Below the pieces are notes generated by a model. The model ran no database searches. It saw only the letters and a list, made by a program, of their open reading frames with translations, and was not told where the DNA came from. Position numbers and translations under genes: made by a program. A stretch of 64,000 nt of DNA from an uncultured Lachnospiraceae bacterium (GTDB lineage: Bacteria; Bacillota; Clostridia; Lachnospirales; Lachnospiraceae), in NCBI GenBank assembly GCA_946405625.1, contig CAMJHQ010000010.1, positions 1 through 64,000 of the forward strand. The letters are read 5' to 3'. Shown one piece after another: positions 3,176 through 23,298 of this stretch (positions are counted from its first letter, which is position 1; the number at the start of each line of letters is the position of its first letter).

Positions 3176-3754
3176 TTACCCCAGACACACGCTCTTAAGT
3201 ATGACCTCTTCCATCTCCTTAGTTCCGATACCGATATATTTCTGCGTGGTATCCAGACTGGAATGCTGCAGAAGGTTTCTTACAAGCTCTATATTATAAT
3301 CACTATTGATATAGGCATTCGTTGCAAATGCCTTACGAAAAGAATGTGTACCGATTCCATCAAGTCCCAGATACTCACAGGTTATCTTTAATAGCTTTGA
3401 TACCACTCGCTCCGATATCGGAAATAGCTTCTGTGTAGGTAGAATATTATGAGCATTGGCATATTCCTGGATAAAGAGATACACATCTATGGGAATCGTA
3501 TATCCTCTATGCTTGCCAGTCTTCTGCTCTGTGATATCAAAGCAGTACCTTTTGCCATCTTTCACAAGATTACACATACGAAGTTCCAACACATCACCGA
3601 TGCGGATGCCGAGATTGTACTCTATAGTTAAAACTGTAGCTATCCTCTTGTTAGGCTGTCTTGCTACCCCATCATTATCTGTAAACCCTGTTCTGATCGT
3701 ACTGACAATCAGCTTGAATGTATCTTCATCAATACACCTTGAACGCTTATTCAT
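3176..3754 (-). CDS. Tyrosine recombinase (phage-type integrase), short form
   Basis: A compact site-specific recombinase with a complete catalytic set. Counting from the upstream TTG at 3775, the residues are R58 (LGIRIGD), K85, H144 and R147 (THSFRK), H171 and nucleophile Y180. The chosen ATG at 3754 follows GGTGAG and gives 192 residues; the TTG start would add seven. It consists of little more than the catalytic domain, lacking most of the N-terminal arm- or core-binding domain of larger integrases. Short integrases of this type occur in integrated plasmids and in gene-inversion or resolution systems. With the HUH Rep gene about 1 kb away it probably belongs to one small integrated element. 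Confidence 0.85.
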   Translation of the reverse strand: MNKRSRCIDEDTFKLIVSTIRTGFTDNDGVARQPNKRIATVLTIEYNLGIRIGDVLELRMCNLVKDGKRYCFDITEQKTGKHRGYTIPIDVYLFIQEYANAHNILPTQKLFPISERVVSKLLKITCEYLGLDGIGTHSFRKAFATNAYINSDYNIELVRNLLQHSSLDTTQKYIGIGTKEMEEVILKSVCLG

Positions 3755-3775
3755 TATTCTCACCAATCCTTTCAA

Positions 3776-4712: not shown

Positions 4713-5906
4713 CTAAGTTATAACTTTTTTAGCTCCGAATATTTTCAAAATCTCAGGTACATCCGCATCCATTGGTCTGATATTTGATTCATCTGGCACA
4801 GTTCCACTTAGTCCACGCTTACAGACTTCCTTGATTTTCCACAATGGGTCTATTGGCTTAACAGGCTTATCTTGCACTTTTGCTTTATCAGTCTTTCTCC
4901 AATATCTGCCAGAACCAGTACCCTTTCTTTGATAATACCGCTTATCAACAATATTGCCCTTTTCTTTATCGCCGATTATAAAGGACTGTCTGAAAGACAA
5001 ATAATAATTCTTAAGCTTATCCTTGATATCCTTATTCGAAAGATACTCTACTGTAGGTCTTTTCATTCCTCGACTACAAGAGTATAAAGGCATACCTGTT
5101 GGATAATATTTGAGTCTTTCTCCTTTGATAAATTTTTTATTTACTCCACCTACATTCTTTGTAACTATATCTGCGTTAGATACCCCTTCTTTTGATTTTT
5201 CAAGCTGTTCTCTCTCATACTCCGACAGAATATCAAAGCTTATATCCGCAGAATCATCACTGTTATTATCATCTACATATTCTACATCCGAAAGATATGC
5301 TCGGAAATATAGAGCAAGCGTATCTGCATCAAAAACCTTATGAGTATCTGTCATACCATAACCCCATATATCAGCAATATCCTGATTGCTGATATAAGGA
5401 GCTTTTGAATCAAATATCAGAATCAGATGAATATGCCACGCATTACCATGATTCTCGCCTTGCGGCTCGGCTACTGCGATAAATTTGAAATCAGACTTTG
5501 ACTCTGGTAGCTTCTGTTTCTTCAGATAACTGCGGAGCTTACGCAGGAATGCTTTGTTGTCTTTGAACACTCTTTTGCAGTCGGTCATTTCTTCTTGATA
5601 AGTAAGTGTTATCCACTTACAGTTTGCAGGATTGGTTGCATTGCACCGAATCAAATCCATAAGAGAGTTTATGCTCTTCCGAACACTTTTCGGTGACTGA
5701 AAACGGTTTTTTGAATGATTACGCTTTCTCACCTCGCCTGTCGATAAATCCACGAACTCATCCTTGGAAAGATTTTTAATCGGACACTTTTTGTTTTTGC
5801 CAGCAGAAAAAGTAACCTGTGCTGTGTTACCTGCCAACTTAAGCGATACTTCGGCATTCTGAGCGATATAAAGCTGATTTGAATTAATAGAACGAATTTT
5901 GGTCAT
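4713..5906 (-). CDS. HUH-superfamily rolling-circle replication initiator (Rep)
   Basis: A 397-residue Rep-like endonuclease. Its HUH metal-binding motif is H157-I-H159 in AWHIHLILIF, preceded by the strand VAEPQGENHG that is typical of Rep proteins. Candidate nucleophile tyrosines follow at about residues 200 and 204 (ALYFRAYL). Such proteins nick one strand at the double-strand origin to start rolling-circle replication of plasmids, phages or integrated elements. The C-terminus is basic and unassigned. The ATG has GGAG nine bases upstream, but that GGAG lies in the arm of a strong hairpin (5914-5945), suggesting translational or operator control. The neighbouring tyrosine recombinase supports an integrated mobile element. 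Confidence 0.8.
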   Translation of the reverse strand: MTKIRSINSNQLYIAQNAEVSLKLAGNTAQVTFSAGKNKKCPIKNLSKDEFVDLSTGEVRKRNHSKNRFQSPKSVRKSINSLMDLIRCNATNPANCKWITLTYQEEMTDCKRVFKDNKAFLRKLRSYLKKQKLPESKSDFKFIAVAEPQGENHGNAWHIHLILIFDSKAPYISNQDIADIWGYGMTDTHKVFDADTLALYFRAYLSDVEYVDDNNSDDSADISFDILSEYEREQLEKSKEGVSNADIVTKNVGGVNKKFIKGERLKYYPTGMPLYSCSRGMKRPTVEYLSNKDIKDKLKNYYLSFRQSFIIGDKEKGNIVDKRYYQRKGTGSGRYWRKTDKAKVQDKPVKPIDPLWKIKEVCKRGLSGTVPDESNIRPMDADVPEILKIFGAKKVIT

Positions 5907-6185: not shown

Positions 6186-6782
6186 TTAAATATATTTCAG
6201 AGCTAAATCTGAACTTAGATTTATTCCATTTTCATTACATATCTCATACCAATTGTAAACATCAGCAAAATGAATTTTATCCCATTTTTCATACAATTCA
6301 TTAATTGAATTGGCAATTTTTATACCAAAAACACCTACATCTTCCCAATAGTTGTAAATCTTACTTTCAGAATAGTCGTATATCTCATGATCATAAAACC
6401 TAATACTTCCATCTCTTTTATCAAAACAAAATGCATCCCCAGTAGCAAAATTAAATAGAGGATACCAATTTATTATCGATTGATATACCTTTAAATCATC
6501 AAGTTCTATATTATATATATCTTCCATAATTCCCACAATTTCTGCATGTTCTTTCTCTAAATCTATATACGGGACAAAATTAATTTCCCCCAAATACTTC
6601 CCCTCATCGAACCATACTAAATTGAATTTTTTATAATGTTCATAAATATATTTTACATTCTCATTAACACCTATTCCTAGAATGTTATCTATTTTGATAT
6701 TATACATTTCCTGATTACAACAACTTAGTTCATATCTTTTTTCCAAATATGATTTCAACATTTCAAAATAATTGTATTGCAA
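6186..6782 (-). CDS. SUKH-family (SMI1/KNR4) immunity protein of the Rhs toxin
   Basis: Predicted 198-residue cytosolic protein with the SUKH core: an acidic helical N-terminus, then FATGDAFCFD, a strand-turn-strand with DHEIYDYSES, and a terminal helix of the type NSINELYEKW. SUKH proteins neutralise nuclease toxins of polymorphic-toxin systems by direct binding. I place the start at the TTG at 6782: the sequence AAAGGAGG lies eight bases upstream and overlaps the last codons of the toxin gene, whose stop ends one base earlier. Longer starts inside the toxin gene lack such a site. The one-base gap means co-translation with the toxin. Specificity for the HNH tip is inferred from adjacency. 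Confidence 0.82.
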   Translation of the reverse strand: MQYNYFEMLKSYLEKRYELSCCNQEMYNIKIDNILGIGVNENVKYIYEHYKKFNLVWFDEGKYLGEINFVPYIDLEKEHAEIVGIMEDIYNIELDDLKVYQSIINWYPLFNFATGDAFCFDKRDGSIRFYDHEIYDYSESKIYNYWEDVGVFGIKIANSINELYEKWDKIHFADVYNWYEICNENGINLSSDLALKYI

Positions 6783-6783
6783 T

Positions 6784-9700
6784 TTATTTTCCTCCTTTAT
6801 GAAATGGATGTATTTCATAACCACTCAATCCAAAATCATCCATCATTTTTCCTGCGAATTGAAAAATATCTTTAGCTGTAGCATCTGGATGATTATCTAT
6901 CCATTCCATCCAAAGTGGGTTCCAGTCTCCTTTTCCATGAATTGAATTCATATGCATGCCTTCTTTTCCTGAAGAAACAGTAATTGTATACTGGTCCACA
7001 TCTATTCCTCTTTCTGCAATAAAATCTGCATACGGCTTACTCTTCCCTCTAAATTTAGGAATAATGTGATGGTCAGCGGTTTTACCTGATATATATTTTG
7101 ATGTTTCTATTAACGGTATATTTGATTTACTTCCACCCTTAATCTCACTTCCACTCGTTGGAGGTGGCGCCATACAATCATTGTGTACGAGAGCGCCAAT
7201 ATCGCTCACATAATATGTATGCCAATCCTCTACCTCAAAGTTGTATACATATATCGGTTCATCAAGATATTCATATTCTATCTTTTGAACTTCTGCAGTT
7301 GTTCCGTCAAGCTGTCTTATCTCATCGCCAGGTTGCAGATCACATGCATACTTAAAGCCATATCCTTCCACATAAAATGGATGCTCTGTAGTGGTTTCTA
7401 TAGTTGTGTTTTCTATAGTCACATGCACTATAAGGGTTTCTTCATGAATAAAAGTACGCTTTACTTTCTTTAATCCGACTTCTCCGGTTTCGACATCGCA
7501 AGCATAGACCTCATCTCCTGCCTGAATATCTTCAATATTCTTATCGCCTTCAGCTGTCTTAATTCTCGTTCCGGCAACGAAACAACCAGCTAATTCTGTT
7601 TTACTCTGCTCTATTAATTCGGATTTTCTAGTATCTTCCGGTGGTGTTTCCCAAGCGATCACCTCATCATTGACAACCCTGCCATATACTACTGCTTCTG
7701 TTGCCCTATAATATGAATTGTAATCCTTCAGCATCATCATTCCGAACGATGTTGTCATTGCAAGGTATGAAAATGTCTCTCCTGCATCTCTAATGAAGTT
7801 TTCATCTAATTCTGCGCCACCTATTACATATGTATCTATCAGCCCTGCCAATCCTTTTCCTGACTTTGCTAAAGCTGTAAAAGCAGCTGTTGATGTACCT
7901 AAAAACTGAACAGCACTTCCGACTATCTCTGCCGTATGTTCGGAACCTGTTATAAACTTGGCTATTGTTCCCGATCCGCCATACAGATTCAATGTAGGCA
8001 ACGCAAAGATAAGGCTTTCTACTCCTTTTTCTACTTCACCTTCTCTGAAATATTTGATTGAATTTGCTATATCAAATACATAACCTATACCCGGTAATGC
8101 TCCGAGTATATTCAGCTTGGTATGTGTATCAAGTCCTGACCATACTTTTCCAACTGCTCTTACAGTTCTGTTTGCTGCTCTTAGAGTATTGTTGATCGGA
8201 TCTGACATGAATGTTGTCAGTGCATGGTAGTTACCTTCTATTGATGCAAGCGTATTGAGCATCTTGCTCAGTCCAAACGGATCAAGATAGTTTACAGGAT
8301 TTCCCTCAACATAACTGTATCTGTTAAGACTCTGACTTTCCAATATGCTTCCACTAATGATATCCCGATTTATGAAGCGCTTGATATCAGTGTTGTAATA
8401 ACGCTGACGCATATATAAAAGCCCGTTACTGTCTGTTGATACTCCATACTCACCATTATAGAGATACCTTACCGGTGATTCTGCTTCACTTAAATCAATC
8501 TCATTAAATCTCTCATCATATGCACCAAGGAATTCTCCAAAGGTTCCATAATCAAAATATAATGTGATCTTTCCTGTCTTATCCGTAATATATCTTGTAC
8601 TTCCCAGATGATCGAAATGATAAATCCTTACATCGCCATGAAGATCTGGATCAGCAGCATTTGATATATCAGACTTTATACTACTGTCAGCAGTGGTTCC
8701 GTTATCTGAAACTGTCACATCATAAACGAGGCCGGTTCCATAATATAATCTTGTGACAGACTTGCCGGTTGTTAATATGTTTTCATTTTTCTTATCGCTT
8801 CTTCTGATCTCGAGAGTCCTGCTGAGAAGACAAACACGATCCGTTACATATTGTTCGTAGTATTCATCTGACTCAGCTGATATTCTTATATTCTCTGCAT
8901 CATACGAATATCTGACACCATCTGCTTCTATCAATCTGTTTCGGCTGTCATATTTGAAGCTGACCATCTTTCCGTCCAGCGGTCCGTAAACCATGTTTCC
9001 GTCTTCATCATACTTAACTTCCGAACCGTTATATCTGATGAGCCTGTTTGCCGCATCATACTCCATAGATGTTGTAACAGACGATGATAACTCTTTATCA
9101 TCTGCGGTTATTTCATCCTTTTCTTTTTGTGTTTTATAATCATTATCTACGGTTTCTTTAACAGCTGTGATATTGCCATATTCATCATAAGAATATTCAT
9201 ACCTCTGAAGAGTCTTTCCTGAGGCAGCTTTATCTTCTCTTATCGTTATATTGCTTCTTTCATCATAAGTAAAAGTTTCGACAGATCCGTCAGGTCTGGT
9301 TGTAGTAATCTTTCTGCCCTGCCTGTCATAGCCGTAAATAGTCTTTCTGCCCGAACCATCTGTCATTTCAGCAAGTGTTCCATCCGGATTATATGAATAT
9401 CTGACTATTTCTCCACCAGGATATGTAATCGACAGGATATTTCCAAGCTCATCATATCCATACTTTAACGTGTTTCCGTTACAATCTGTGAAGCTTGAAA
9501 CTCTGTCCATTTCATCATATGTTCTTGTTATAGTTCCTGACTTATCGCTGACAGTAAGAAGATTTCCGTTTGCATCATAACTATACTTAATAACGCCTTC
9601 TGCATCATTAAGCTCTGTCAATCTTCCGCACTTATCGTAACTGTATTCCGTTTTATTTCCTCTTGCATCTATCAATCTTACAAGATTACCGTAAGAGTCG

Positions 9701-12700
9701 TATTCATATTGGGTAATATTTCCAACCGGATCCTTCACTTCGGTCAGATTGCTTGATCTGTCATACGAATACTCTGTAACTCCACCCATTGCATCAGTCA
9801 CCGAAGTCACCTGTCCGAGCTTATCGTATTCCTGAGAAGTAATCTTACCCGCAGGATCGGTAACATTGATCAGACGTCCAAGTTTATCATAGGAATATGA
9901 ATAATTCTTTGAAGTAACGTCTTTGTTATCTTCTGAAACCAGACAGGAGGTCACATGAACAGGATTTCCACAAATATCATATTCATATTTTACGCTGTTA
10001 CCTATATTATCGGATTCTTCCGAGATGCGACCCATACAATCATATTTGTATTCGGAATAATTGCCAAACTCATCTTCGACTTTTACAAGTCTTCCGGCTA
10101 TATCATATGAATATGATGTTTTCCTTCCTGATTCATCTGTTGCCGATACAAGCAGCCCTGCTTTATCATAAGCATAAGAATATTTGATTTCTTTTCCACT
10201 AACCTCTGTTCGTATATCAGTCACGTTGCCTGATAGATCATACTTTTGTTCAACCTTTAATCCGTTTGGATATGTTATATCAGAGCATCTTCCAATCTGA
10301 TCATAACCATATATTGTCTTATTTCCATTCGGATCAACTGCGGAAATCATATTTCCGAAAGAATCATACTCATAAGTTGCTGTATTTCCGAGAGGATCTG
10401 TTTCCGAATTTATAAGTCCTATTGAATTATATGTAACCGACGACGATATTTCACCTAATGAAATCTCTGATATATCTTTTCCTGTATAAGCTATGTCAGT
10501 TTCTGCTCCGTTTGACGCTATTATCCTAGTCAGTTTTCCATCATCGTCATAACCATAACCTGTTACATTACCTATAGCATCTGTAATTTCAGATAACATA
10601 CCCTTGTCATTATAGGATAATGTCTCAACCGAACCATCAGAATAAGTTACACTTCTGACCTTTCCAACTTCATCGTAAGAATATTTCTCCGAAGTACCAT
10701 CAGCAAATTCTTTTTCGATAAGTCTTCCGATCATATCATAGCTGAGACCTGTTTCTGAACCATCCGGATATTTTATTACTGTACATCTTCCTGATGCATC
10801 ATAGCTATAACTTATAGTATTACCCAATGGATCAGTTTCTGTAGTTACAAGTCCGAGAGAATTATATGTATATCTTGTAACCCCGCCCAGAGGATTCTTC
10901 ACACTGATCAGCCTGTCCATGGCATCATAAGTATATCGGGTAACGCCTCCCGCAGGATTTGTAACCGAATTAATATTTCCATAGCTGTCGTACGTAACAC
11001 TAACAGATGCACCTAATTCATTTGTATATGATGTAAGTCTTCCTTTATCTGATGTAAAGCTGCATTTACCTCGTCCCTCAGTTTCCATCGAAACAAGTGT
11101 ACCTTCATCATCATATGCATATCTTACCGTATTTCCATATAATGTTCCTTCGATCAGTCTTCCTTTATCATCATAAGAATAATTTGCCTTATTCTCCAAC
11201 TCAGGTTTTTCTGATTCACTAATCGATGAAACTTCAATTATATTTCCGGATTCATCATATCGAAGATTAACATTATCACCTGTAGATTGTCGTACAGATG
11301 TCATTTTTCCGGATTCATTATATGAGTAATCTGTCCAAGAGCCATTAGAATTCTCCAAATGGATAAGATTATCATCCGAATCATATACATAACTGACATT
11401 TCCTGTCTTATCTTCTCCATAAGTTATAAATCCATGATTATTACTGATTATGGTGGTTATATCTGTAATATCATCATGTACTGATGTAACAACAGTCTTC
11501 AGTCCGCCATCGGTTTGCTCATTATAATCAAATCTCAGTATTGTACCGGCAGAATCAATCTGACTTTTAACCCTTCCGATATCATCATATGAGTTTTCAA
11601 CTATGAGTTCACCCTCATTATCTTCCGATCTTGTCATAAGATGATAACCATTGGGGGAATCGTAGTTATAAGATATTTTTTCACCCAAAGGATTCGTAAT
11701 GCTGATAAGATTACCCTTTTCATCATAATCAAATGCAGATACTCTGCCTGCATTATCACTTACTGATCTTAATAATCCATTACTGTCTTTAATAAGAATA
11801 AGTGTATTACCGGATATTTTTTCTGTAACCGTTTCGGTTATTCCCCCATCAGCATTTTGTAAATACGATATATCGGTAATACTTCCGCTTTCAGATATAT
11901 ATTGAGTCAAACGACCATCAGAATCATATATAAATCGAGAACCTGAAGGTACTTCCAGCGAATATGAACCATCTCCATGTCTCGTTAGATTATATCCATC
12001 TGTATTTGCCAAAAAGCTTACATATCTCACATCAGAATCCGTATCAACATCTGACAAAACAATTCCTTCATCATCTAATCGACCATAAAGAGAGCCTTCT
12101 TTAGACTTTTCACTTATGAATGGAACACATACGTATGGATTGATATAATAATGCAATATGCCATTCTTTTCTTCAATCCATGTATCAAAATCATTATACC
12201 AGCCATAACCACAGGTGTTTTTTATCATGTCCGTATCTTTATCCGCATCCGTAACTGTAGCATATTCATCTAAAGTTTTTATATCAGAATCCGACTCAGA
12301 TGCCTTCTTTGCATTTACATCTTTATCAGCATCAGTCACAGAAGCCTTATCATCACATAAAGCTGCAAATCTTGAATCATACTGCATATCAAGAGAAAGT
12401 ATATCTTTTCCTATAAATCCAAGAGCTGTATAACTATCAGTGAAAGCACCCGACGTAAGATCTACCGGATCTCCCAATACTATGTTTTCGTCCTTACCCT
12501 TCCATACTGTCGAAATATACTTTGAAATATGCGAATCTATCGGTTTTACTATAACTTTAACACCCGGATTATACTCACTTACAGCAGTAACAACATAATT
12601 CTTAAGTTCATAAAATTCCTTCAGATGATCTCCTGTAAAAATCTCTCTGGATTTTTCAGCAGATAAACACCATGTTCCATATATAGTCTGACCGGGTAGA

Positions 12701-15700
12701 AGTGTCGGAATCGTTATCTCGTCATCACCACTCAGTACAGGCATCTGATATATCTGTTCTGATATCGGAATAACATAACTCCTTCCTTCAACACTTTCTT
12801 CAATGCTGGTTATCACACCTGTCTCGGGATTCATAATATGAACCGCTGTCTTTTTTGCCGGTTCCTCTCTATCACCTATACTGGTCGTAAAATTATATAA
12901 TGGCTCATTACCATTATTCGTTATTGCATACTGAATATAATACTTTTCTCCGATATATGCAGAAGATTCAGGCATAACAAGTATCTCAACGTCCGCCTGT
13001 TCAACTTCCATTTTCTGTTCAGCTATAAATGATTTCTCAACATGCACATTAAAAGGCATGAGTGTACCGCCGAATTTTGCTTTGATACGATATGATCCGG
13101 ATCTGTCACCTTTTATTATCCAGCTTACTCGTTTCTTTTCCTGTCCATTTATATGTCCCATGTCAACTTCTTCAGTATCTGCTGATATTACTGAACACGA
13201 TGGATCATCATTTCCAGATCCAAGGTGCACTAAACTAACACCCTGAGGCAGTTCTATAGACCCCATGGCGTCTTCAATTACATATTTGCTGTCAGCAGCA
13301 TTAAAGATGGTCAGATTAGCCGAATACATGGTCTTAAGCCATGATACCGTCTGCGTAGTCTGAAGTACAACAACTACGGGAACAGGTTCCGGTGCAGGAA
13401 CACCGATCATCATCACATCCGAAATATAAGGACCTCTTATATCCCCTGGTCCCTGACCTCCTTCTCCAAAATAAACCTCTGTTCCACCACCTGACTTATC
13501 GATATCATTTCCTTTAATTTCAATTCCACCCGGAATTTCATCTACAACTACAGGAATTGGTCTTTTCTCAAAGGTAAGTGAAGTCGTAAATGTAAATGTA
13601 TTGAGATTAGCCGGATCGCTTAAATCCACTCCTGATTCAATTATTTCTTCAAGAGTCATACGATGTATCTCAAAATCACCCTGAATCACTTCACCGCTGG
13701 CAAGAGAAATAATACATTCTTTTATTTCGCCACCGATTATTTCAGCAGTCTGTTCTGAAGGAAGATAACCTTCTTTATATGCAGCTATTTTATAATTCCC
13801 GGCTTTATAAGCCAGATAAACCTCTCCGCTTCCATCCGTCATATAGAAGCATTCATTATCTCCGGGTGCATTAATATAAACATAGGCATAAGGTATCGGG
13901 CATCCGGCGGAATCTTTCACAACAACCTTGCAAAAACCTGAATTATCATCTTCCTTAACCTGAACAGGTATAACCTTATAACTGCTGTTACCAGACGTAT
14001 CGGTAACCGTAAGTTTAATGCTATAGTTTCCCGGATTGTCATATTTATATTCTGTGTTAGCTCCATCAAGAATGATTCCATTTCCCATATCCCAACTGAA
14101 GCTCTTAATCTTTACATTATCCGTTGATGCACCGGCTGAAAGTGCAAAGCTGTAACCAGCTATAGAAGTGATCTTTTCTGTCGTATTTATAACCGGAGCA
14201 ACCTTGTCTGGTATAAAGGCTTTATCGTCAACTATATTGGTCCAACTATAATTTCCGTACTTATCATATAGTTTGGCAGCATAGCTGTATCTGACTCCTG
14301 ATACAACAGTTTTATCCTCATAACCTGTATGAGAAACCGATGTTCCGATTTTCCGAGCTTTTATCATAAAATCAAAATCGGTTGGTGCATCATCACTCTC
14401 ACACCTATATATTTCCATATAATCAAAATCAGAAGAAAACTCTTCATCAAGTCTTAGATTAATAAAACATTTGAAATCATCAGGCATATTCGGATATATC
14501 ATTCCTGTACAAGGTGTCTTGTCTATCTTGAAAGTTCGGATAAAATCATCACTTCGATTTCCAGATTTATCCAAAACAACAAATCTGAAATCATATAATC
14601 CTTCCTCATAATCCGAAAAATCCATATGAAATGAACTCTGTGCATATCGTCCTGAATGATTAACTCTATATATCTCTGACCATGTATTATCTACGATTTC
14701 ATATTCGTCATCTGCCTTATCAACGATTTGAGACGTTTTATAATCCGAGCAATGTCTGATATATACGATCAAACTGCATAGCTCAGTATTATCAGAAATA
14801 AGATATGTAATTTCTGAACTCTGTCCCACAGAAGAATTTTCCTGAGGTGATATTCCTTTTACCTCGGGATTTATATTATCCGGGTTGGCAGTAACACATA
14901 TAGGATCAGTTCTATTACTGATATTCCCAGCTAAATCAATACATTCGATCTGATAACTATAAGACATACCACTTTTAACGGAAGTATCATACCAGTTTAG
15001 ATCTTTTGTCTCACCAACTTTCCTATATACGCCAAAGCTATCAGAATCCTTCTTCTTTTCCGATCTGTAAATACGGTATTGACATATATCATCTTCTTGT
15101 TCACTTTTATCCCATGAAACCTCTATATTACCTTCATGAACAGTCACCGAAAAATTATCAGGAACATGCGGAGCAGTTCTATCAATTATATATTCAGCAA
15201 TGACCTCTTTCTCACCCTCCATAAGTGCATTCATATTTCCTGAAGCATCAAAGCACTCAGACTTTATATAAATATGGCCTTCAGGAAATTTATCTACATC
15301 TGATATATCAAAATGATTTCTGAATTCATATGTCGAACCAGAACCGCTTACACGTGCAATCTCGCTAAAATTATATCCATCAAAAGAATAACTCCATAGT
15401 GCATCCGAAAGATCGGAATTATCTTTTGCAGAAATTTTTAAGTCTATGCTATTTTTAACTCTGCAAGGTGAAGGACTTATGCTTGTAATCACCGGAGGTA
15501 TATAATCATTTACTGTTTTCACGGTAACTACATCTGAGTATTCACCTTTATTACCCAGATCATCAACTCCCATAACTCTGAACTTATATTCTTTTTGAGG
15601 TTTAAGACCGTCTGCAATGTAACCGGTATGATCATATTCCTTATATATTTCTGAAAATTCTCCATTATCTCCCATCACCTCAACGGAAAAATATGAAAAA

Positions 15701-18700
15701 TCATTTTCAGTTACATCATCCCACATTAGTTGAACATATGTAGCACCCGTTTTGATATCTGTAATATTGATTTGGGAAATACCTGTATTATCGACTACAT
15801 ATCGTCTAATAAACTCTTTATCACTATGATTCCCTGAAGCATCAACCGCTTCGGCTTTTATCTGATATATTCCATCCGGAAGATCCAGAGTATTCCACTC
15901 GGTTGAAACATTGATTACAGGCGAAGGCCTTTCACATCTTGTGTTATTAATCTTTATCCAGTTTCCGGCTAATAACTCAGATGACAATGCATCAGTCACT
16001 GATAATATATTATCTTCGTTCTCATCTGACCATCTGTAAAAGAAAACAACTTCATCGGAAGCTTTATTATCTTCTGCTACTGCATTAAGACCTACTTTTC
16101 CCGAAACTCTTCCCGCAGATGGACTCAAATTAATAATTTCGGGCAGTACAATATCTTTTCCCGCAGTAACTTCAACAGAAGAAACATCACCGTTTTCAAC
16201 GTCGATCATATTGCCATTATTATCAACTGCAACTACTTTATATATGTATGTCTGTCCTTCTACGGTATTTTTATCCTCAAATGTTTTATCATTAACCGAT
16301 GATGTCGAACCCAGATAAGTATCCTTTGATTCAGCTCCTACATTAACCCGATATATTTCATAATGATCAACATCTGAATCCTTAGTCGGTCTATCCCATG
16401 ATAAAAAGATCACACCGCTTTTATTTTCCGCTTTTAAGTTTTCAATTTTATTTGGTGGAATATTATCGATGTAATATGTTACTTCTTCTTCAACAGAATT
16501 ACCGTCAATATCAGTTAAAGTAAATCTTACTTTTACACTTGATTGTGTAATGACTGAAGTGTCAAATTCACATGATAAATTCAGCTCCTTATTTAAACTC
16601 GGTTTATGAGTCAAAGCAGCTGTATTTATCATTATCCAATTATTGTCTTCATCTAGATATTCAATATCAAGTTTATTTGCTGAATAGTATCCGTAGTTTT
16701 TAAAATAAACCGTTAATCTAGCATTTTCGTTATTTATTTCACTGTTATTATTTGGTATTACTTTGTTAATAACCGGTTTTGCAACAGCAGTTGAGATTCT
16801 TTCGCTCTTATCAGACCTGTTTCCAGCATCATCATAAGCTTCAATCTTATATTCATAAACAATGTCATTATCCGGATCAACACTATCATCCCTGAATATA
16901 ATCAATGAATCTTTAAGCTCATATTCAATATCAGGAAGCAAATCTCCGTTTCTATAAACATTATAACCTGCTACACAAACATCATCATCGGATTCATTCC
17001 ACGATATTGTAATCGATGACCCGCTTTTGGACTCAATAGCCAAACCATCAGGTGCTGACGGAGGCGTTGTATCTTTCGGAATCGTCACATTAAGAATACT
17101 GGAAACCGGAGAAGTATCACCATATTTGCCAAAGGACACAACCTTATATTCATAACTACTATCAGGTTTGACAGTATTATCAACAAAGAATCTGTCTGCT
17201 GTTACACCGATCAAAGAATTATCACGATATATATTGTATCCCACAGCTACGCTATCAGAACTATCTTTAAAATGAATTGTTGCAGAATTCACGTTTATAT
17301 TATCTGCCCTAAGATCTGAAACTGCATCGAGCGGCTTATCGTCGTATTCATATAATATTTCATTTGCAATTTTCTCCGGATCGCCAGATAATTCAAACTC
17401 CGATTCACGTCCTCTGAGTATGAGAGTATTAATTTTAGAATCATCATACTTTGATTCTTTAATCTTAATTGTTTTATCTTCTAACGGATTGATTATAAAT
17501 TTATGATCACCTGATGCATAAAAAGCAGAAGCATATGTCAAATCAAGATCAGAATTCAACTCAACTGTTCCTGATGTAAGTCTTGATCCACGTGCTCCAT
17601 AATATTGAAATGAACCAGTCAGTCCAATATAATCACTATCTGACTCCATTACAAGTTTGCCTAGATATGTATTAAATGACAGATCATGAGCAAATAAACT
17701 ATATCCGTTAATATCAAGTTCATTTTCTACTGTAAGATTTCCGTTTATTGTCAAGTCCTTTTCAAGTATATCTTTTCCGACCAAACGGATATTCCCATAA
17801 TAATCACCTTCAACTATATTAAGTGATGGTACCCTTATCCAAGCTAAATTACTTATATTGGTCGAAGCCAGTTCATCAGTCACTGTAAAATTACTATTTT
17901 TAATTTCAAGATATCCTGTATTGCTGATCACAAGTGATGGAATGGTTGAAACACCTGAGCCTATAGCCTGCCTTCCTATACCATCCATAACAATCTTTAC
18001 ATTTTTACCTAGAAGTAAGCCCGAACTTGCATCAAAATCTTTTCCAACATATATAGTTCCCGATTCAATCTCTGTGTTTTTACTGTTATTATACAGATTC
18101 AGACTCCCATCAACATCAAGGACATCCCTGTCACTTGCCATAACAAGAATTCCCATTCCGCTACTGTATATATATCTGTTAGTCCCCTTATCCAGTTCTT
18201 TAATCTGTTCCTTCAGATCACCTTTTACGATAAGCTTTCCTCCATTGAACTTAATAATTCCGTTCATATGATTAAGATTACCGTTTACTGTAAGTGTATG
18301 ACCATTAAGATCAAGTACGCCATCAACAAAATAACTATCTCCATCGTACTCTATGTCTGAATCAAGAATTCTATCCTCAATTATATTTTCATATGCGTAT
18401 GTAAGTTTGCTTTCATTACGAATAATCTCATCATAAAACAATATAGATTTGCTGTTCACACCTATACTACTTTTATTCTTTAATTCCAGTATTGCAATAT
18501 CAGCCTTATTATGTGTATCAATTGTCTGCTTGCCGTTACCTGATAGAATGATTTTATTCTCTCCATCAGCTTTGAATCCGCTATTTAAGTCAACATTACC
18601 TTTAACTTCTATAACTCCTTGGGATAAGGAACCTATTGAAGGTGTGCTTGTCCCTGTATAGTTAAATGATGATCCGACATAAATATATGAATTCCTATTA

Positions 18701-21700
18701 TTTAATACAAGACCGGATAATGTTAAAGCCTTGGAAACGCTAAGCTTGGCATTACCGATGGTTGTTATTCCGGTAAGATTTACACTACCTTTTACTGTTA
18801 CATTATTATTAATTGTCGCTGCTCCTGTCATATTGCCACCGACAGTAAGCTCTCCGTTTATTGTAGAAGTCCCATTGAGATTTCCACTGAGGTTAATTGT
18901 GCTATTTAAAGTAGATATTCCACTAAGATTTCCATTTATTACTGTATCTATATAGAAATTAGGCTTGCCGTCAACATTACCGTTTATTGTCAGTTTACTA
19001 TCATCAGACTCAATATCATCACCATATATCCTGTCAAAAACATTATTACATGTAATATCTGCATTTATACGATTACCTTCGATATGGGCTCCTTTATTAA
19101 GTGTAATCTTATTCTCAAACACTGCATTACCCGGTTTAATAGACGAAGTTATGATTATATCACTGCCTGATATAGTATTATTACCGTTTTCTGATTCCTC
19201 AACATACAAATTTGATAGTGTAATAAATCTTCCATTTCCACTTGTAATATTACTTTTCAGTATATGATCATTGTCCGTCAGGATAAGTTTTGAGTTGCCG
19301 GTAGGATAAAATCCATATATACCGCTTTTGGCATCAACAATATAATCACCGGATAATCTTATAATTCCATCTGTAATTTTTCCATTATTATTCTTTGTGA
19401 TAGAATTATAAAAACTACCTTCAATCTCTATACTGTCTTCCGGATCATTCATTATGATTGATGATTCGGATGTGTCATAAGTATAATTTCCTTCATCGCC
19501 TTTTCTTATCTGCTGTCTCAGATTTCCTTCAACGATAAGTTTACCATTATTGATATCAAGGGCTCCACCCATCAGAATAAGATCACCATTTACTACTTTC
19601 AAAGTGTGGCCATCTAAATCCATTATTCCGTCAATAATAATCAGATCTCCATTATATTCCAGATCGTTATCAAGTTTATATCCATCTATCCCCGACAGTC
19701 CATCATATCTGAAGTTACAATCGTGATTAATTAAGGAATCCTTGTTAAATACAGTCTTTGCAACAACACCGGCATCACTATGATTATTTAATTCAAGTGT
19801 AGCCAGCTTACATCCCCCTCCTATGTCAACTGTCTGCAATCTATCTCCGTTAAGAATAACCCTGTTCTTATCGCTGGCATAAAATGAGTTATTACCCGTT
19901 ATAAAATCTCCACCGACATAAATGGTTCCGTTTCGATAAGATCCTCCTGCTCTACAGATAAAATCACCACCGATTTCTACTACTGCATCTTTATTTTTAT
20001 TATAAAAATGCAACGATAAGCCTTTAAACTCGGCATTACCATTAACAAACATTTTTGAATTATCATAAAGATTTACTTCACCATAACCTGTGATTCCATT
20101 TTCTTTATTTCCTATATAGTTACCCTCTGTAATAAGAGTTCCATATAAATCAAAATAACCTACTGAATTAATATTTTTCTTTACGGTCAGATTTCTGCCC
20201 CTATCTATTGTAATACCGCCGACACAATCCAGATTACCACCTATGGTATAGTTATAATAAAAATATCTTTCACCTATACTAATATCTCCGGCAAAACCGG
20301 AACCTGAAAGATCTACATCTTTTGAATCTATGATAATCCGGCCTTCAAATTTATCATCCATATCAGAAGTTAAACCACCCATAATTCTGAGTGCTGTATC
20401 CGCATAAATCGTCCCTTGAGAATCGAGCTCAAGTTTTCCGATTTTCAGTTCATCCAAGTTATTAGCAATTATCTTCTGATCTGCCTCTCCATTCATATAA
20501 ATCTTCAGATTTTTCGAACACACAAATGCTGTTTTGGAAGAATCTTCACCTATTTCAAGATTTCCTCCAAGTTTAATTGTTCCGCTTGTCAGATTTCGAG
20601 TATTATCGGCCTTTGACCATATAACAAAATCTTTTGAAATGATGACTTCATCCTTATCATAACTCATGATAAGTGATGCTCGACCATAATTATATTTTTC
20701 ATTTTCACGATCCTCATCGCTGCTAAAGCTCTGCATTCTGTAGGATCCCTTTATATCTAGTGTACCATTATTCAGAATTACTTTTCCCGACATCTGAACA
20801 AAATCACCTTCGATTGTAAGCTTATGTCCTTTAAGATCAAGATTCCCCTCTGAAAGAACCAGATCTCCTTCTATTATTTCATCATCCTCAAGTGTCCATC
20901 CGGTAACTACATTAGTTGCACCATAACTAAAATTATAATTATTCCCTTTTAAAGTATCATAAGAAATTATAGAATCGCTGATTATTCCTTCTGTACTATG
21001 ATTTTCAATTTCCAGAATTTTAATGTTTAACTTATCTGCATTCTTTATTTCCTGTAATGAATCTCCAGAAAGAATAAGTTTATACGCATATACCTTGCTA
21101 TCACCGGTTATCTCAATATTACCTTTAATCTCAAGCACTTCACATGCATCACCAACAAAAGTAAGACCATTTGTAGTATAGTTACCATATATGCATACTT
21201 TAGATGATGACTGCTGTGATCGAAACGTTATATTAACGCAGTCTCCTTCAACAATCACATTTCCATTTTCATAATAAAACATATTATTATCTTCATTGGA
21301 TATCAATGAACCTTTGATATGTCCACCAATTACAGAAATTTTATCATCAGCAATAACATCACCTTCAACATATAACGAATTCACCTTCACATAATAATTA
21401 TTATAGAGATTTCCTGATACAGACAGATCTGATACATATAAACCTATTTCATTATACACATTTCCATTAACAACTAATTTTCCATTACCTTCAATTATAT
21501 AATAATTATATACATCTCCCGTCACGGTTAATAAGTCATTGGTAGTACATCCGGTTCCATTGCTCATCTTAGTAACTGTAAGATTTCCATTCACGGTAAA
21601 AGCTGAATCAAATCGAATATTTTGAAGTATTGATATGTCTCCATCAAAATAATCGTTATCGAATGTAGTTTCGGAACTGATCATTATAGGACCCGAAAGC

Positions 21701-22602
21701 TTATTATCTCCAGTAACTATCTTTCCTGATATATATAATGGTTCATTGATTTTTACACCTGCTTCAGAACTGTTAAGATTAATAATGTTTCGGATATGAC
21801 TATTATTTCCATTAATTGTATAGCCTTTTGTACAACTATATGAAATCAACTGTTCTTTGTCAGATGACATAGTTATAGTATGATTTTCCGATGGCATAAA
21901 ACCTGTCTTTCCGGTTCTGATATCAAAGCATATATCACCTTTAACCTCGATATTTCCTGCAGAAAGAAGTTTACTATCGTTGTTATCATGAATCGTATCA
22001 ATTATAAAATCCTGATTTATCAGAATCTTATCATTACTGTCATTCATTATCAGAGTGCTATCGGACGACGAGTATACTATTTCACCCATATCATCTACAG
22101 AGTATTTTTGCATTCTATAAGAACCATAAATCTCCAATAATCCATTATTGATATCAACTATACCTGCAGAATGCAGAAAATCTCCTTTAATAGTCAATTT
22201 ATGACCATTAAGATCAAGAGTTCCTGAATCAAGAACAAAATGTCCATCTACAACCATATCAGATTCCAGTTTTGCTCCAACGGATATATTAATATTATCC
22301 ACATCGAAAGGAATAGTATTATCAATATCACTATCATTATATTTATCATTCTTATACTTATCTAAAATAGCGCTGATATCATCTATATTCGGATTATCAA
22401 TATTACCTGTATTTTCCTGATCAAAATCTATTGATATATCATTATTTATTGCATCTGTATCCGAAGCCGTATCAATTACTGTTTCATCTTTGTTAACACT
22501 TCTATCTGTTCTTTGAAAACTACAATTAAAAGAAGACCATGGCAGCATCATAACTGCCATAGTCATTGCAATAATTCTTTGTTTAGCATCCCATAAATTC
22601 AT
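6784..22602 (-). CDS. Giant Rhs/YD-repeat polymorphic toxin with Hint domain and HNH-type nuclease tip
   Basis: A 5272-residue secreted protein. Approximate domains in order: signal sequence 1-28; four beta-rich super-repeats of about 430 residues (about 100-1750); about six fibronectin-III domains interspersed with Ig-like segments (1755-2800); PKD-like domain (about 2820-2880); carboxypeptidase-regulatory-like domain (2889-2970); linker; YD-repeat barrel (about 3370-4570); Rhs core with HFDHLGSTRY and NRYSYVEGNPVNYLDPFG (about 4650-4780); hydrophobic linker; Hint domain from C at about 5005 (CFVAGTRI, TEHPF, ending VHN at about 5142); then a roughly 130-residue tip. The tip has ADHHIIPKF (around 5176), NSIHGKGDWNPLW and a terminal HPFH, resembling predicted HNH/Endonuclease VII-fold toxins. 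The Hint domain would autocleave to free the tip. The immunity gene follows directly. No frameshift is seen. The ATG is preceded by a weak AGGG. Confidence 0.9.
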   Translation of the reverse strand: MNLWDAKQRIIAMTMAVMMLPWSSFNCSFQRTDRSVNKDETVIDTASDTDAINNDISIDFDQENTGNIDNPNIDDISAILDKYKNDKYNDSDIDNTIPFDVDNINISVGAKLESDMVVDGHFVLDSGTLDLNGHKLTIKGDFLHSAGIVDINNGLLEIYGSYRMQKYSVDDMGEIVYSSSDSTLIMNDSNDKILINQDFIIDTIHDNNDSKLLSAGNIEVKGDICFDIRTGKTGFMPSENHTITMSSDKEQLISYSCTKGYTINGNNSHIRNIINLNSSEAGVKINEPLYISGKIVTGDNKLSGPIMISSETTFDNDYFDGDISILQNIRFDSAFTVNGNLTVTKMSNGTGCTTNDLLTVTGDVYNYYIIEGNGKLVVNGNVYNEIGLYVSDLSVSGNLYNNYYVKVNSLYVEGDVIADDKISVIGGHIKGSLISNEDNNMFYYENGNVIVEGDCVNITFRSQQSSSKVCIYGNYTTNGLTFVGDACEVLEIKGNIEITGDSKVYAYKLILSGDSLQEIKNADKLNIKILEIENHSTEGIISDSIISYDTLKGNNYNFSYGATNVVTGWTLEDDEIIEGDLVLSEGNLDLKGHKLTIEGDFVQMSGKVILNNGTLDIKGSYRMQSFSSDEDRENEKYNYGRASLIMSYDKDEVIISKDFVIWSKADNTRNLTSGTIKLGGNLEIGEDSSKTAFVCSKNLKIYMNGEADQKIIANNLDELKIGKLELDSQGTIYADTALRIMGGLTSDMDDKFEGRIIIDSKDVDLSGSGFAGDISIGERYFYYNYTIGGNLDCVGGITIDRGRNLTVKKNINSVGYFDLYGTLITEGNYIGNKENGITGYGEVNLYDNSKMFVNGNAEFKGLSLHFYNKNKDAVVEIGGDFICRAGGSYRNGTIYVGGDFITGNNSFYASDKNRVILNGDRLQTVDIGGGCKLATLELNNHSDAGVVAKTVFNKDSLINHDCNFRYDGLSGIDGYKLDNDLEYNGDLIIIDGIMDLDGHTLKVVNGDLILMGGALDINNGKLIVEGNLRQQIRKGDEGNYTYDTSESSIIMNDPEDSIEIEGSFYNSITKNNNGKITDGIIRLSGDYIVDAKSGIYGFYPTGNSKLILTDNDHILKSNITSGNGRFITLSNLYVEESENGNNTISGSDIIITSSIKPGNAVFENKITLNKGAHIEGNRINADITCNNVFDRIYGDDIESDDSKLTINGNVDGKPNFYIDTVINGNLSGISTLNSTINLSGNLNGTSTINGELTVGGNMTGAATINNNVTVKGSVNLTGITTIGNAKLSVSKALTLSGLVLNNRNSYIYVGSSFNYTGTSTPSIGSLSQGVIEVKGNVDLNSGFKADGENKIILSGNGKQTIDTHNKADIAILELKNKSSIGVNSKSILFYDEIIRNESKLTYAYENIIEDRILDSDIEYDGDSYFVDGVLDLNGHTLTVNGNLNHMNGIIKFNGGKLIVKGDLKEQIKELDKGTNRYIYSSGMGILVMASDRDVLDVDGSLNLYNNSKNTEIESGTIYVGKDFDASSGLLLGKNVKIVMDGIGRQAIGSGVSTIPSLVISNTGYLEIKNSNFTVTDELASTNISNLAWIRVPSLNIVEGDYYGNIRLVGKDILEKDLTINGNLTVENELDINGYSLFAHDLSFNTYLGKLVMESDSDYIGLTGSFQYYGARGSRLTSGTVELNSDLDLTYASAFYASGDHKFIINPLEDKTIKIKESKYDDSKINTLILRGRESEFELSGDPEKIANEILYEYDDKPLDAVSDLRADNINVNSATIHFKDSSDSVAVGYNIYRDNSLIGVTADRFFVDNTVKPDSSYEYKVVSFGKYGDTSPVSSILNVTIPKDTTPPSAPDGLAIESKSGSSITISWNESDDDVCVAGYNVYRNGDLLPDIEYELKDSLIIFRDDSVDPDNDIVYEYKIEAYDDAGNRSDKSERISTAVAKPVINKVIPNNNSEINNENARLTVYFKNYGYYSANKLDIEYLDEDNNWIMINTAALTHKPSLNKELNLSCEFDTSVITQSSVKVRFTLTDIDGNSVEEEVTYYIDNIPPNKIENLKAENKSGVIFLSWDRPTKDSDVDHYEIYRVNVGAESKDTYLGSTSSVNDKTFEDKNTVEGQTYIYKVVAVDNNGNMIDVENGDVSSVEVTAGKDIVLPEIINLSPSAGRVSGKVGLNAVAEDNKASDEVVFFYRWSDENEDNILSVTDALSSELLAGNWIKINNTRCERPSPVINVSTEWNTLDLPDGIYQIKAEAVDASGNHSDKEFIRRYVVDNTGISQINITDIKTGATYVQLMWDDVTENDFSYFSVEVMGDNGEFSEIYKEYDHTGYIADGLKPQKEYKFRVMGVDDLGNKGEYSDVVTVKTVNDYIPPVITSISPSPCRVKNSIDLKISAKDNSDLSDALWSYSFDGYNFSEIARVSGSGSTYEFRNHFDISDVDKFPEGHIYIKSECFDASGNMNALMEGEKEVIAEYIIDRTAPHVPDNFSVTVHEGNIEVSWDKSEQEDDICQYRIYRSEKKKDSDSFGVYRKVGETKDLNWYDTSVKSGMSYSYQIECIDLAGNISNRTDPICVTANPDNINPEVKGISPQENSSVGQSSEITYLISDNTELCSLIVYIRHCSDYKTSQIVDKADDEYEIVDNTWSEIYRVNHSGRYAQSSFHMDFSDYEEGLYDFRFVVLDKSGNRSDDFIRTFKIDKTPCTGMIYPNMPDDFKCFINLRLDEEFSSDFDYMEIYRCESDDAPTDFDFMIKARKIGTSVSHTGYEDKTVVSGVRYSYAAKLYDKYGNYSWTNIVDDKAFIPDKVAPVINTTEKITSIAGYSFALSAGASTDNVKIKSFSWDMGNGIILDGANTEYKYDNPGNYSIKLTVTDTSGNSSYKVIPVQVKEDDNSGFCKVVVKDSAGCPIPYAYVYINAPGDNECFYMTDGSGEVYLAYKAGNYKIAAYKEGYLPSEQTAEIIGGEIKECIISLASGEVIQGDFEIHRMTLEEIIESGVDLSDPANLNTFTFTTSLTFEKRPIPVVVDEIPGGIEIKGNDIDKSGGGTEVYFGEGGQGPGDIRGPYISDVMMIGVPAPEPVPVVVVLQTTQTVSWLKTMYSANLTIFNAADSKYVIEDAMGSIELPQGVSLVHLGSGNDDPSCSVISADTEEVDMGHINGQEKKRVSWIIKGDRSGSYRIKAKFGGTLMPFNVHVEKSFIAEQKMEVEQADVEILVMPESSAYIGEKYYIQYAITNNGNEPLYNFTTSIGDREEPAKKTAVHIMNPETGVITSIEESVEGRSYVIPISEQIYQMPVLSGDDEITIPTLLPGQTIYGTWCLSAEKSREIFTGDHLKEFYELKNYVVTAVSEYNPGVKVIVKPIDSHISKYISTVWKGKDENIVLGDPVDLTSGAFTDSYTALGFIGKDILSLDMQYDSRFAALCDDKASVTDADKDVNAKKASESDSDIKTLDEYATVTDADKDTDMIKNTCGYGWYNDFDTWIEEKNGILHYYINPYVCVPFISEKSKEGSLYGRLDDEGIVLSDVDTDSDVRYVSFLANTDGYNLTRHGDGSYSLEVPSGSRFIYDSDGRLTQYISESGSITDISYLQNADGGITETVTEKISGNTLILIKDSNGLLRSVSDNAGRVSAFDYDEKGNLISITNPLGEKISYNYDSPNGYHLMTRSEDNEGELIVENSYDDIGRVKSQIDSAGTILRFDYNEQTDGGLKTVVTSVHDDITDITTIISNNHGFITYGEDKTGNVSYVYDSDDNLIHLENSNGSWTDYSYNESGKMTSVRQSTGDNVNLRYDESGNIIEVSSISESEKPELENKANYSYDDKGRLIEGTLYGNTVRYAYDDEGTLVSMETEGRGKCSFTSDKGRLTSYTNELGASVSVTYDSYGNINSVTNPAGGVTRYTYDAMDRLISVKNPLGGVTRYTYNSLGLVTTETDPLGNTISYSYDASGRCTVIKYPDGSETGLSYDMIGRLIEKEFADGTSEKYSYDEVGKVRSVTYSDGSVETLSYNDKGMLSEITDAIGNVTGYGYDDDGKLTRIIASNGAETDIAYTGKDISEISLGEISSSVTYNSIGLINSETDPLGNTATYEYDSFGNMISAVDPNGNKTIYGYDQIGRCSDITYPNGLKVEQKYDLSGNVTDIRTEVSGKEIKYSYAYDKAGLLVSATDESGRKTSYSYDIAGRLVKVEDEFGNYSEYKYDCMGRISEESDNIGNSVKYEYDICGNPVHVTSCLVSEDNKDVTSKNYSYSYDKLGRLINVTDPAGKITSQEYDKLGQVTSVTDAMGGVTEYSYDRSSNLTEVKDPVGNITQYEYDSYGNLVRLIDARGNKTEYSYDKCGRLTELNDAEGVIKYSYDANGNLLTVSDKSGTITRTYDEMDRVSSFTDCNGNTLKYGYDELGNILSITYPGGEIVRYSYNPDGTLAEMTDGSGRKTIYGYDRQGRKITTTRPDGSVETFTYDERSNITIREDKAASGKTLQRYEYSYDEYGNITAVKETVDNDYKTQKEKDEITADDKELSSSVTTSMEYDAANRLIRYNGSEVKYDEDGNMVYGPLDGKMVSFKYDSRNRLIEADGVRYSYDAENIRISAESDEYYEQYVTDRVCLLSRTLEIRRSDKKNENILTTGKSVTRLYYGTGLVYDVTVSDNGTTADSSIKSDISNAADPDLHGDVRIYHFDHLGSTRYITDKTGKITLYFDYGTFGEFLGAYDERFNEIDLSEAESPVRYLYNGEYGVSTDSNGLLYMRQRYYNTDIKRFINRDIISGSILESQSLNRYSYVEGNPVNYLDPFGLSKMLNTLASIEGNYHALTTFMSDPINNTLRAANRTVRAVGKVWSGLDTHTKLNILGALPGIGYVFDIANSIKYFREGEVEKGVESLIFALPTLNLYGGSGTIAKFITGSEHTAEIVGSAVQFLGTSTAAFTALAKSGKGLAGLIDTYVIGGAELDENFIRDAGETFSYLAMTTSFGMMMLKDYNSYYRATEAVVYGRVVNDEVIAWETPPEDTRKSELIEQSKTELAGCFVAGTRIKTAEGDKNIEDIQAGDEVYACDVETGEVGLKKVKRTFIHEETLIVHVTIENTTIETTTEHPFYVEGYGFKYACDLQPGDEIRQLDGTTAEVQKIEYEYLDEPIYVYNFEVEDWHTYYVSDIGALVHNDCMAPPPTSGSEIKGGSKSNIPLIETSKYISGKTADHHIIPKFRGKSKPYADFIAERGIDVDQYTITVSSGKEGMHMNSIHGKGDWNPLWMEWIDNHPDATAKDIFQFAGKMMDDFGLSGYEIHPFHKGGK
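17320..22290 (-). repeat. Four ~430-residue beta-rich super-repeats in the Rhs N-terminus
   Basis: Within the giant Rhs protein the pattern (V/I)DG....G-x-L-D-L-x-G-H-x-L-x-(V/I)-x-G-(D/N)-L...NNG-x-L-x-(I/V)-x-G recurs near residues 109, 560, 974 and 1413. Each copy is followed by about 400 residues of short strand-turn motifs of the type x-(V/I)-x-GN. Copies two to four are each preceded by a related lead-in of the type I-x-x-LE(I/L)-x-N. The spacing of about 450, 414 and 439 residues suggests tandem duplication of one module. The likely fold is a beta-helix or similar stalk on the cell surface. Confidence 0.75.
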
Positions 22603-22626: not shown

Positions 22627-23298
22627 TTATTCTTTCTTATTCTTTAAAACCACCCACACTATAAAAAAAATAAACGATATACCCAATAACATAAGAACTA
22701 CGATAGGTTGAAAACTATCGTCTGTCGAAGAATTTCTATCAGTACTTATACTCTCGTTTATTTTCTGACTATCTTTGTTATCACTTAAAGTATCTTTAAT
22801 TTTAGTATCATCCCCGGATATATTGTTTATATCTGATTTGGAAGTTTCAAGTTCTGAATTATGTTCTATTTCTATTACTTGTCCTGAATTAGGTTCGGAT
22901 TCTGTTTCTCCGAATCCCTGCTTATTTTCTTCAGAATTTATTTGAGATTCACTATTTGATATATTGTCATTATCATTAACTGACGTTTTTACATCACTCT
23001 CCGTAATTTCATTTTTGTCAGGATCATTATTATCAGTATTCTGCTCATCCTTTACAGATAAATCATTACTCTGCCACTCTGTTATAGAAATGATATTCCC
23101 GTTTGAATCATACTCATACTCTGTGTAACTGCCATCATCATGAACCACTTTAACTAGTCTTCCTTCAGGATCATACTCATACTCATCGGCATAAACTCTA
23201 ATCGGAAAAGAAATAACAAAACATAAAACCAAAACAATTAGAATATAAAGATTTTTTAAATAATTAGATCTTTGATTCATCATATCACCATCGGACAT
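22627..23298 (-). CDS. Membrane-anchored protein with a minimal YD-repeat unit, companion of the giant Rhs protein
   Basis: Predicted 223 residues: an N-terminal signal segment (about 14-37, ending VYA), a short YD segment at 38-66 (DEYEYDPEGRLVKV and YTEYEYDSNGNIISI), a long acidic Ser/Asn/Asp/Glu-rich disordered stretch (about 70-190), a C-terminal membrane helix (about 196-217) and a short KNKKE tail. So a tiny YD unit is displayed outside and tethered by one helix. It starts one base after the GNAT gene and ends 24 bases before the giant Rhs gene, so it is almost certainly co-transcribed with it. Starts at 23283 or 23280 are also possible. Role unknown; an anchor, docking or nucleation partner for the YD barrel is an inference. 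Confidence 0.7.
   Translation of the reverse strand: MSDGDMMNQRSNYLKNLYILIVLVLCFVISFPIRVYADEYEYDPEGRLVKVVHDDGSYTEYEYDSNGNIISITEWQSNDLSVKDEQNTDNNDPDKNEITESDVKTSVNDNDNISNSESQINSEENKQGFGETESEPNSGQVIEIEHNSELETSKSDINNISGDDTKIKDTLSDNKDSQKINESISTDRNSSTDDSFQPIVVLMLLGISFIFFIVWVVLKNKKE

Follow-up and report, generated by a model that had tools for sequence, protein, structure and literature searches.

A giant Lachnospiraceae Rhs toxin encoded beside a conserved single-YD partner protein that may tether it to a surface

In the available parts of the published accounts of Rhs toxins, anchoring domains lie within the toxin itself and the N-terminal plug differs between Rhs families (PMC12704120, PMC8765631, PMC3482391). 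WapA-CT1 of Streptococcus suis, as described in part of its report, possesses a LysM wall-binding N-terminus and has SrtB and SecF-like genes upstream; the giant toxin analysed here shares with such WapA-type toxins a predicted Sec signal, a YD shell, a C-terminal toxin and upstream accessory genes, whereas it carries a beta-rich stalk, no wall-binding domain was found in it and its upstream gene encodes a single-YD protein (PMC12704120). With the RhsA cocoon of the type VI secretion system (T6SS), which has an N-terminal plug, it has in common the Rhs shell and core by sequence, but no PAAR domain was found in it using Pfam and the region preceding its shell, which we call the neck, resembles none of the solved plugs in sequence (PMC8765631, in the part available). 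An RHS stalk, HINT-type processing, swappable tips and adjacent immunity genes also recall the polymorphic toxins compiled by Zhang in 2012, in which, as far as the available portion of that survey goes, anchoring and lectin modules are part of the toxin polypeptide, whereas here they occur on a second protein (PMC3482391). The tip finally matches PF09533, as do SitA6/DUF2380 toxins, but is here the end of an Rhs protein and not a stand-alone lipoprotein, and the match to TIGR02269 stays below cut-off.

To our knowledge, the surface retention of very large Gram-positive Rhs toxins has been little studied. No description of the toxin–partner pair was found in titles or abstract openings of the open PMC literature, which is no proof of its absence. 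The stretch analysed, referred to as the window, comprises 64,000 nucleotides of a contig from an uncultured, gut-type Lachnospiraceae bacterium, and the giant toxin within it is built as follows:

6784..22602, minus strand: giant Rhs toxin ORF, 5272 aa (ORF reading)
17641..22281, minus strand: stalk, super-repeats headed at residues 108, 567, 973, 1409 and weakly 1612 (stalk profile A3)
14263..17355, minus strand: FN3/Ig-like region (Pfam fn3, 75.4 bits, above cut-off)
13981..14202, minus strand: PKD domain (PKD_4, 59 bits, above the Pfam cut-off)
12364..13992, minus strand: neck, with a carboxypeptidase-regulatory-like start and a CARDB-like end (profile A5, 687.8 bits, high by construction)
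8992..11928, minus strand: YD shell (21 RHS_repeat stretches; among solved Rhs shells best 8h8a, E=5.8e-53)
8269..8478, minus strand: Rhs-associated core, DPFG motif at residue 4774 (TIGR03696, 59.2 bits)
7177..7563, minus strand: PT-HINT, Cys 5007, His-Asn before the tip (103.8 bits)
6817..7077, minus strand: toxin tip of DUF2380/SitA6 type (PF09533, 37.4 bits, cut-off 26.3; TIGR02269, 37.9 bits, below its cut-off of 85.75)

The frame begins with ATG and runs through 5272 codons without an internal stop. It encodes a signal-like start and the stalk, after which scans with Pfam and NCBIfam in overlapping segments spanning residues 1–5272 gave, towards the C-terminus, fn3, PKD, a weak CarboxypepD_reg match, the neck with a weak CARDB match, RHS repeats, Rhs core, PT-HINT and tip. 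A preliminary description of this DNA had proposed one uninterrupted frame joining super-repeats, FN3, PKD, YD shell and Hint domain, and the profile heads and family matches listed above bear this out; the carboxypeptidase-regulatory-like domain that it also named scores below its own cut-off (24.8 of 32.3 bits). The RHS_repeat total of 506.4 bits together with the core identifies the protein, as judged from sequence, as an Rhs polymorphic toxin with stalk, capsule, Hint domain and tip, and C5007 as Cys1 with the HN preceding the tip predicts autocleavage by PT-HINT. The region before the YD shell, with the neck ending at residue 3413, makes up 65% of the protein, in line with the roughly 60% given earlier for the N-terminal part, and the family matches agree with the earlier layout of an N-terminal stalk carrying a capsule, Hint domain and toxin tip, for which surface display is presumed. 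Concerning the supposed nuclease tip, the tip as such passes the cut-off of PF09533 but not that of TIGR02269, and the word nuclease expresses a family resemblance to DUF2380/SitA6. LysM, SLH, wall-binding and sortase-anchor families were absent from residues 1–5272 at E<=0.01 in Pfam, and the protein thus does not show the N-terminal wall-binding domain of WapA-type toxins.

Residues 1–900 matched nothing in Pfam, NCBIfam or PHROGs, and no domain exceeded its cut-off in residues 1–1750, in keeping with the earlier expectation that this part corresponds to no standard domain; bactofilin, the best match there and considered for the later stalk, was rejected at 19.7 versus 27.9 bits. The stalk profile, made from stalk module heads (40 rows), gave weak matches to solved structures, the best being 5t5i_C (E=3.1e-5) and all others having E>=0.008, and a periodicity test of the stalk returned weak signals. 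The fold of 5t5i_C is one we take to be beta-helix-type; since the matches are weak, the stalk shape is presumptive. The YD shell matches solved Rhs shells, T6SS effector shells among them. The neck (profile of 19 rows, built mostly from loci fetched for partner hits) showed weak matches to carboxypeptidase tails and two other structures, and since published Rhs plugs differ between families, we consider it a candidate plug by analogy.

A frame accident could be rejected because a second full copy of 4743 aa lies elsewhere in the same genome and frames of 4034–5160 aa with the same layout occur in other genera. In the same genus, one relative has 5013 aa, and two others, truncated by a contig end and by the limit of the examined piece, have at least 4088 and at least 4966 aa, respectively; complete relatives in other genera have 5160, 5036, 4947, 4476, 4034, 3141 and 3049 aa. 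Since such long relatives with stalk and neck occur in other genera, length and stalk are subfamily traits. The comparison with related genomes hence upholds the giant frame as real but not the view that its layout is unusual in itself. Among 397 genomes of the family, the stalk profile was found in 20 (E<=1e-6), in part in surface proteins without a YD shell, and the neck profile in 23 at E<=1e-20, with 17 loci in 15 genomes at E<1e-100. In 371 genomes of the class, partial neck matches appeared in 11 genomes of other families, none reaching past position 429 of the 520 in the profile; the pieces inspected there, only about 2.4–4.3 kb long, showed no partner. By sequence, the giant therefore belongs to an Rhs toxin subfamily of the Lachnospiraceae that is marked by the full-length neck. 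Its N-terminal peptide matched six named records, all from uncultured Lachnospiraceae in the RUG series, presumably of rumen origin.

The tips differ among relatives, as in polymorphic toxins: DUF2380 in the window, AHH and YwqJ deaminase elsewhere. The second copy in the same genome ends in PT-HINT and AHH with an Imm11 gene directly downstream, and a relative in genome G010 possesses a YwqJ-type deaminase tip with a SUKH-3 gene directly downstream. The tip in G225 has a sub-threshold DUF7587 match, and those of G130 and G398 matched no toxin family among the families scanned. At the corresponding place in the window lies:

6186..6824, minus strand: candidate immunity gene, by position, overlapping the toxin end by 41 nt

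This gene had no match in Pfam, NCBIfam, PHROGs or PADLOC, and its position makes it a candidate for an immunity role.

Three elements had been absent from the preliminary description, namely the neck, a conserved in-frame hairpin and a single-YD protein encoded upstream of the giant. The latter, referred to as the partner, has the following parts:

22627..23298, minus strand: partner, 223 aa, with signal-like start, one YD unit, acidic linker and hydrophobic plus K/R tail, directly upstream of the giant
23077..23184, minus strand: YD unit, right after a likely AxA-type signal-peptide cleavage site judged by eye (RHS_repeat, 33.1 bits, cut-off 22)
22651..22704, minus strand: hydrophobic tail segment followed by K/R (hydropathy reading)

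We found 22 uninterrupted partner copies in 15 genera, besides an interrupted one (G015) and a piece at a contig end (G021). Across 19 aligned copies, the YD unit holds 12 of the 13 invariant or nearly invariant columns, the thirteenth being the start Met. Between the window unit and that of the second copy, differences fall on codon positions 1, 2 and 3 in 4, 2 and 16 cases, with 13 synonymous versus 5 non-synonymous codons. Signal peptides of the partners were judged by eye; by this reading, a likely cleavage-site alanine (glycine in G172) stands a few residues before the YD unit in 18 of 22 copies, the pattern differing in G225, G166, G335 and G069. As the cleavage site lies just before it, the YD unit would sit at the mature N-terminus. 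What is attached to the unit varies and comprises a hydrophobic segment with K/R (9 of 22 partners, hydropathy mean >=2.4), three CBM25, two CBM26 with dockerin, LRR_5 or nothing, the last in at least two short partners without anchor (G225, 86 aa; G207, 113 aa). The attachments follow the YD unit, in G069 they precede it. Gram_pos_anchor (PF00746) did not match the window partner, which hence does not classify as a sortase substrate by this family; one other place in its genome matches, and the genome has three sortase matches.

The partner at locus L118 (16158–17186) combines two CBM26 and a dockerin with a C-terminal YD unit and resembles what we take to be amylosome-type starch-binding parts; its genome has one cohesin-like match of 23 bits, 25.1 with neighbours, at a cut-off of 24.1. 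A reading of the partner as a detached 5' piece of the giant gene was rejected, since no YD unit was found in that region, and short YD frames in G347, G172:C2, G023 and G303 (unit score <=39.5) were discarded as broken Rhs gene pieces or unrelated. The profile of partner YD units scores its own members high by construction, and the genome-wide partner search, which scored at most ten candidates per genome and gave, among the matches listed, many ordinary YD repeats or linkers, is not a census; with the G207 partner as query, LRR matches dominated.

Of the 22 uninterrupted partners, 21 have an Rhs or stalk frame no more than 5 kb away, the exception being G026, where an intact partner has no adjacent giant. 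Neighbouring frames are cut by contig ends in G033, G032, G172 and both G207 copies, and the G172 partner adjoins a neckless Rhs frame of 915 aa located at a contig end. In adjacent uninterrupted pairs, the gap or overlap ranges from -73 to 152 nt; in G389 the partner follows 865 nt downstream of the giant instead of preceding it. Partners of the same kind adjoin DUF2380, AHH and YwqJ deaminase tips. We tabulated 53 Rhs-type ORFs (>=800 aa, >=8 YD motifs by a permissive expression), 49 of them with their 5' end and >=500 nt upstream. A stalk of >=70 bits was accompanied by a partner in 13 of 13 cases, one being the interrupted G015, as against 4 of 36 below this score. For the neck, 16 ORFs with >=130 bits had a partner and 6 had none, compared to 1 with and 26 without below that score; at >=480 bits the partner was present in 15 of 16 (exception G236, locus L149), and with a weak neck of 160–217 bits in 1 of 6. 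In L104 the stalk frame and the Rhs frame are separate ORFs and were therefore counted as an Rhs ORF without neck.

Many loci in this table had been retrieved on account of partner hits, so that it is not a random sample, and a separate count was made over the loci found by the neck search of the 397 genomes. Among 17 full-length loci, 14 had the 5' end covered, 12 of these with an adjacent partner. In one of the remaining two, G327:C2, the partner lies 4.5 kb away behind two other genes; the other, G236, combines a strong neck (584 bits) with 8.5 kb of upstream sequence devoid of a partner. In a search of G236 with the G207 partner as query, the matches listed concerned only its LRR part and linker. 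A stalk without partner occurs in G327:C40 (L153), where the contig is cut before any shell, and no partner stands beside five stalk proteins lacking a YD shell (L148, L151, L152, L154, L155), with upstream spans of 223 nt in L152 and 670 nt in L154. Membrane proteins of 400–500 aa, alike by eye, occur in L106 (G207:C277), L149 (G236:C15) and L104 (G327:C2); those of G207 and G236 immediately precede the stalk or Rhs frame, and in G327 one more gene intervenes. In G207 and also in G327, the membrane protein gene separates partner and giant.

Tentatively, and with a confidence slightly short of even, we read the two genes as a two-protein Rhs weapon, in which the YD unit of the partner would dock on the giant and the rest of the partner would tether the complex to a surface. 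Judging from the families involved, the giant would be exported by Sec, with its toxin tip enclosed in the YD shell at the far end of the long stalk, and the tip would be released through self-cleavage by Rhs core and Hint domain and presumably kill. The partner, encoded just before the giant, looks exported too; its YD unit may dock by beta-strand pairing onto the neck or the open edge of the YD shell, and its remainder may tie the complex to a surface, in this genus through a membrane or wall tail, elsewhere through starch-binding modules, dockerin or LRR. If true, one YD unit with swappable surface modules would be a simple and testable answer to the retention of giant toxins, and it would connect toxins acting between bacteria with the starch-binding or dockerin-type proteins that gut bacteria carry on their surface.

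The close upstream position of the partner, its occurrence as the same kind with different tips and the existence of tailless forms would also suit a secreted folding helper, a chaperone-like seed whose YD unit templates or protects the shell during folding outside the cell without lasting tether. Such a seed, however, would have no need for the long linkers and surface-type modules, dockerin and CBMs included, of many partners, and a partner is missing from 26 of the 27 Rhs-type ORFs that lack a neck; we consider a helper unlikely. The giant might instead be an ordinary large WapA-like Rhs toxin and the small gene an incidental surface protein or a relic in the operon: its Rhs, PT-HINT and tip parts belong to known families, and G026 retains a partner without giant. 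This explanation is about as unlikely; it sits poorly with the mostly synonymous changes in the YD unit and with the recurrence of the partner beside neck-Rhs genes in many genera, once even downstream of the giant. An immunity or decoy protein blocking self-delivery would likewise be expected to be of secreted type and encoded beside the toxin, yet the same kind of partner adjoins different tips, mostly upstream, and in two paralogues the gene immediately following the toxin is of Imm11 or SUKH-3 type; we hence rejected this role, whose probability is very low.

Within the first codons of the giant lies another conserved feature:

22528..22564, minus strand: conserved 37-nt element, a 12-bp hairpin (22535–22564) plus T-run, at about codons 13–25 of the giant (terminator scan, fold, conservation)

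Its stable stem and U-run correspond to an intrinsic terminator or attenuator, with termination itself predicted. The element is present in 8 of 8 gene starts of the genus found by protein likeness, of which L065 and L069 were reached via the peptide motif, and also in a G018 remnant found by pattern; the 13 gene starts from other genera lack it. Across 61 genomes of the genus, the pattern occurred at 10 places, versus 0 in the reversed control; nine are the known loci and the tenth (G001) lies among unrelated ORFs. The pattern was found 0 times in viral contigs. Rfam returned a single, chance-level match, CrcZ, at 13.6 of 95 bits, which was dismissed. A promoter scan found 103 sites, hardly more than in shuffled sequence (mean 95.3, sd 9.2). 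A deletion derivative in L069 (9941–11749, 602 aa) joins signal and hairpin to core and tip and lacks stalk, shell and partner.

In this genus, the element may act as an attenuator, at which RNA polymerase would enter the 16-kb toxin gene only while the gene start is translated. A serious alternative, with a likelihood not far below one half, is that the element is conserved only as the protein motif TMxxxMxPWSSF or through exchange of gene starts between strains. It does encode the most conserved peptide of the giant's N-terminus, and 9 of 9 elements keep a T-G wobble at one stem position, although perfect pairing there would be synonymous. Covariation is modest: both sides have changed in two stem pairs, and at least as many such pairs arise in 286 of 500 shuffles. 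The terminator scan found 13 terminator-like sites versus 6.8 expected (sd 3.0), which indicates that such sites also arise by chance. Against this alternative stand the invariant third positions, 8 of 13 in the element (for three of these Met or Trp leaves no other codon, and a fourth is partly constrained) versus 0 of 13 on each flank, and the codons ACT and CCA in 9 of 9 elements despite usages of 0.25 and 0.21. Invariant columns overall number 25 of 37 in the element versus 3 of 39 upstream and 0 of 39 downstream. Stem pairing in 97.2% of cells was reached by 8 of 500 shuffles and the covariation score by 4 of 500, and fold z-scores range from -3.85 to -7.43. The wider picture of a split Rhs system, whose capsule YD unit has moved to a separate clip protein with interchangeable anchors (membrane tail, starch-binding modules, dockerin/cohesin, LRR) and whose toxin expression is gated by the hairpin, is possible but doubtful. 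What merits follow-up, in our view, is the conserved partner with its single YD unit and changing surface modules and, for this genus, the hairpin within the frame.

Beyond the toxin end, the window contains further genes. A small secreted-type protein (511–1152, minus strand) with a weak JAB-like match of 17.8 bits, below cut-off, is followed by a 77-aa gene (275–508, minus strand), possibly forming an orphan toxin and immunity pair. A transposase-like ORF, IS110 by eye, adjoins this pair at 1218–2507, and a partial tyrosine-recombinase-like ORF, also by eye, lies on the minus strand at 3176–3775 between the transposase and a replication gene. The latter (4713–5906, minus strand) encodes a REP_ORF2-G2P-type replication protein (65.3 bits) downstream of the toxin, and a near-identical start of this protein (81-aa ORF) is found downstream of the deletion derivative at 13825–14070 of L069. 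Since the replication protein is encoded near both the window toxin and this derivative, a link between these loci and a mobile element is possible.
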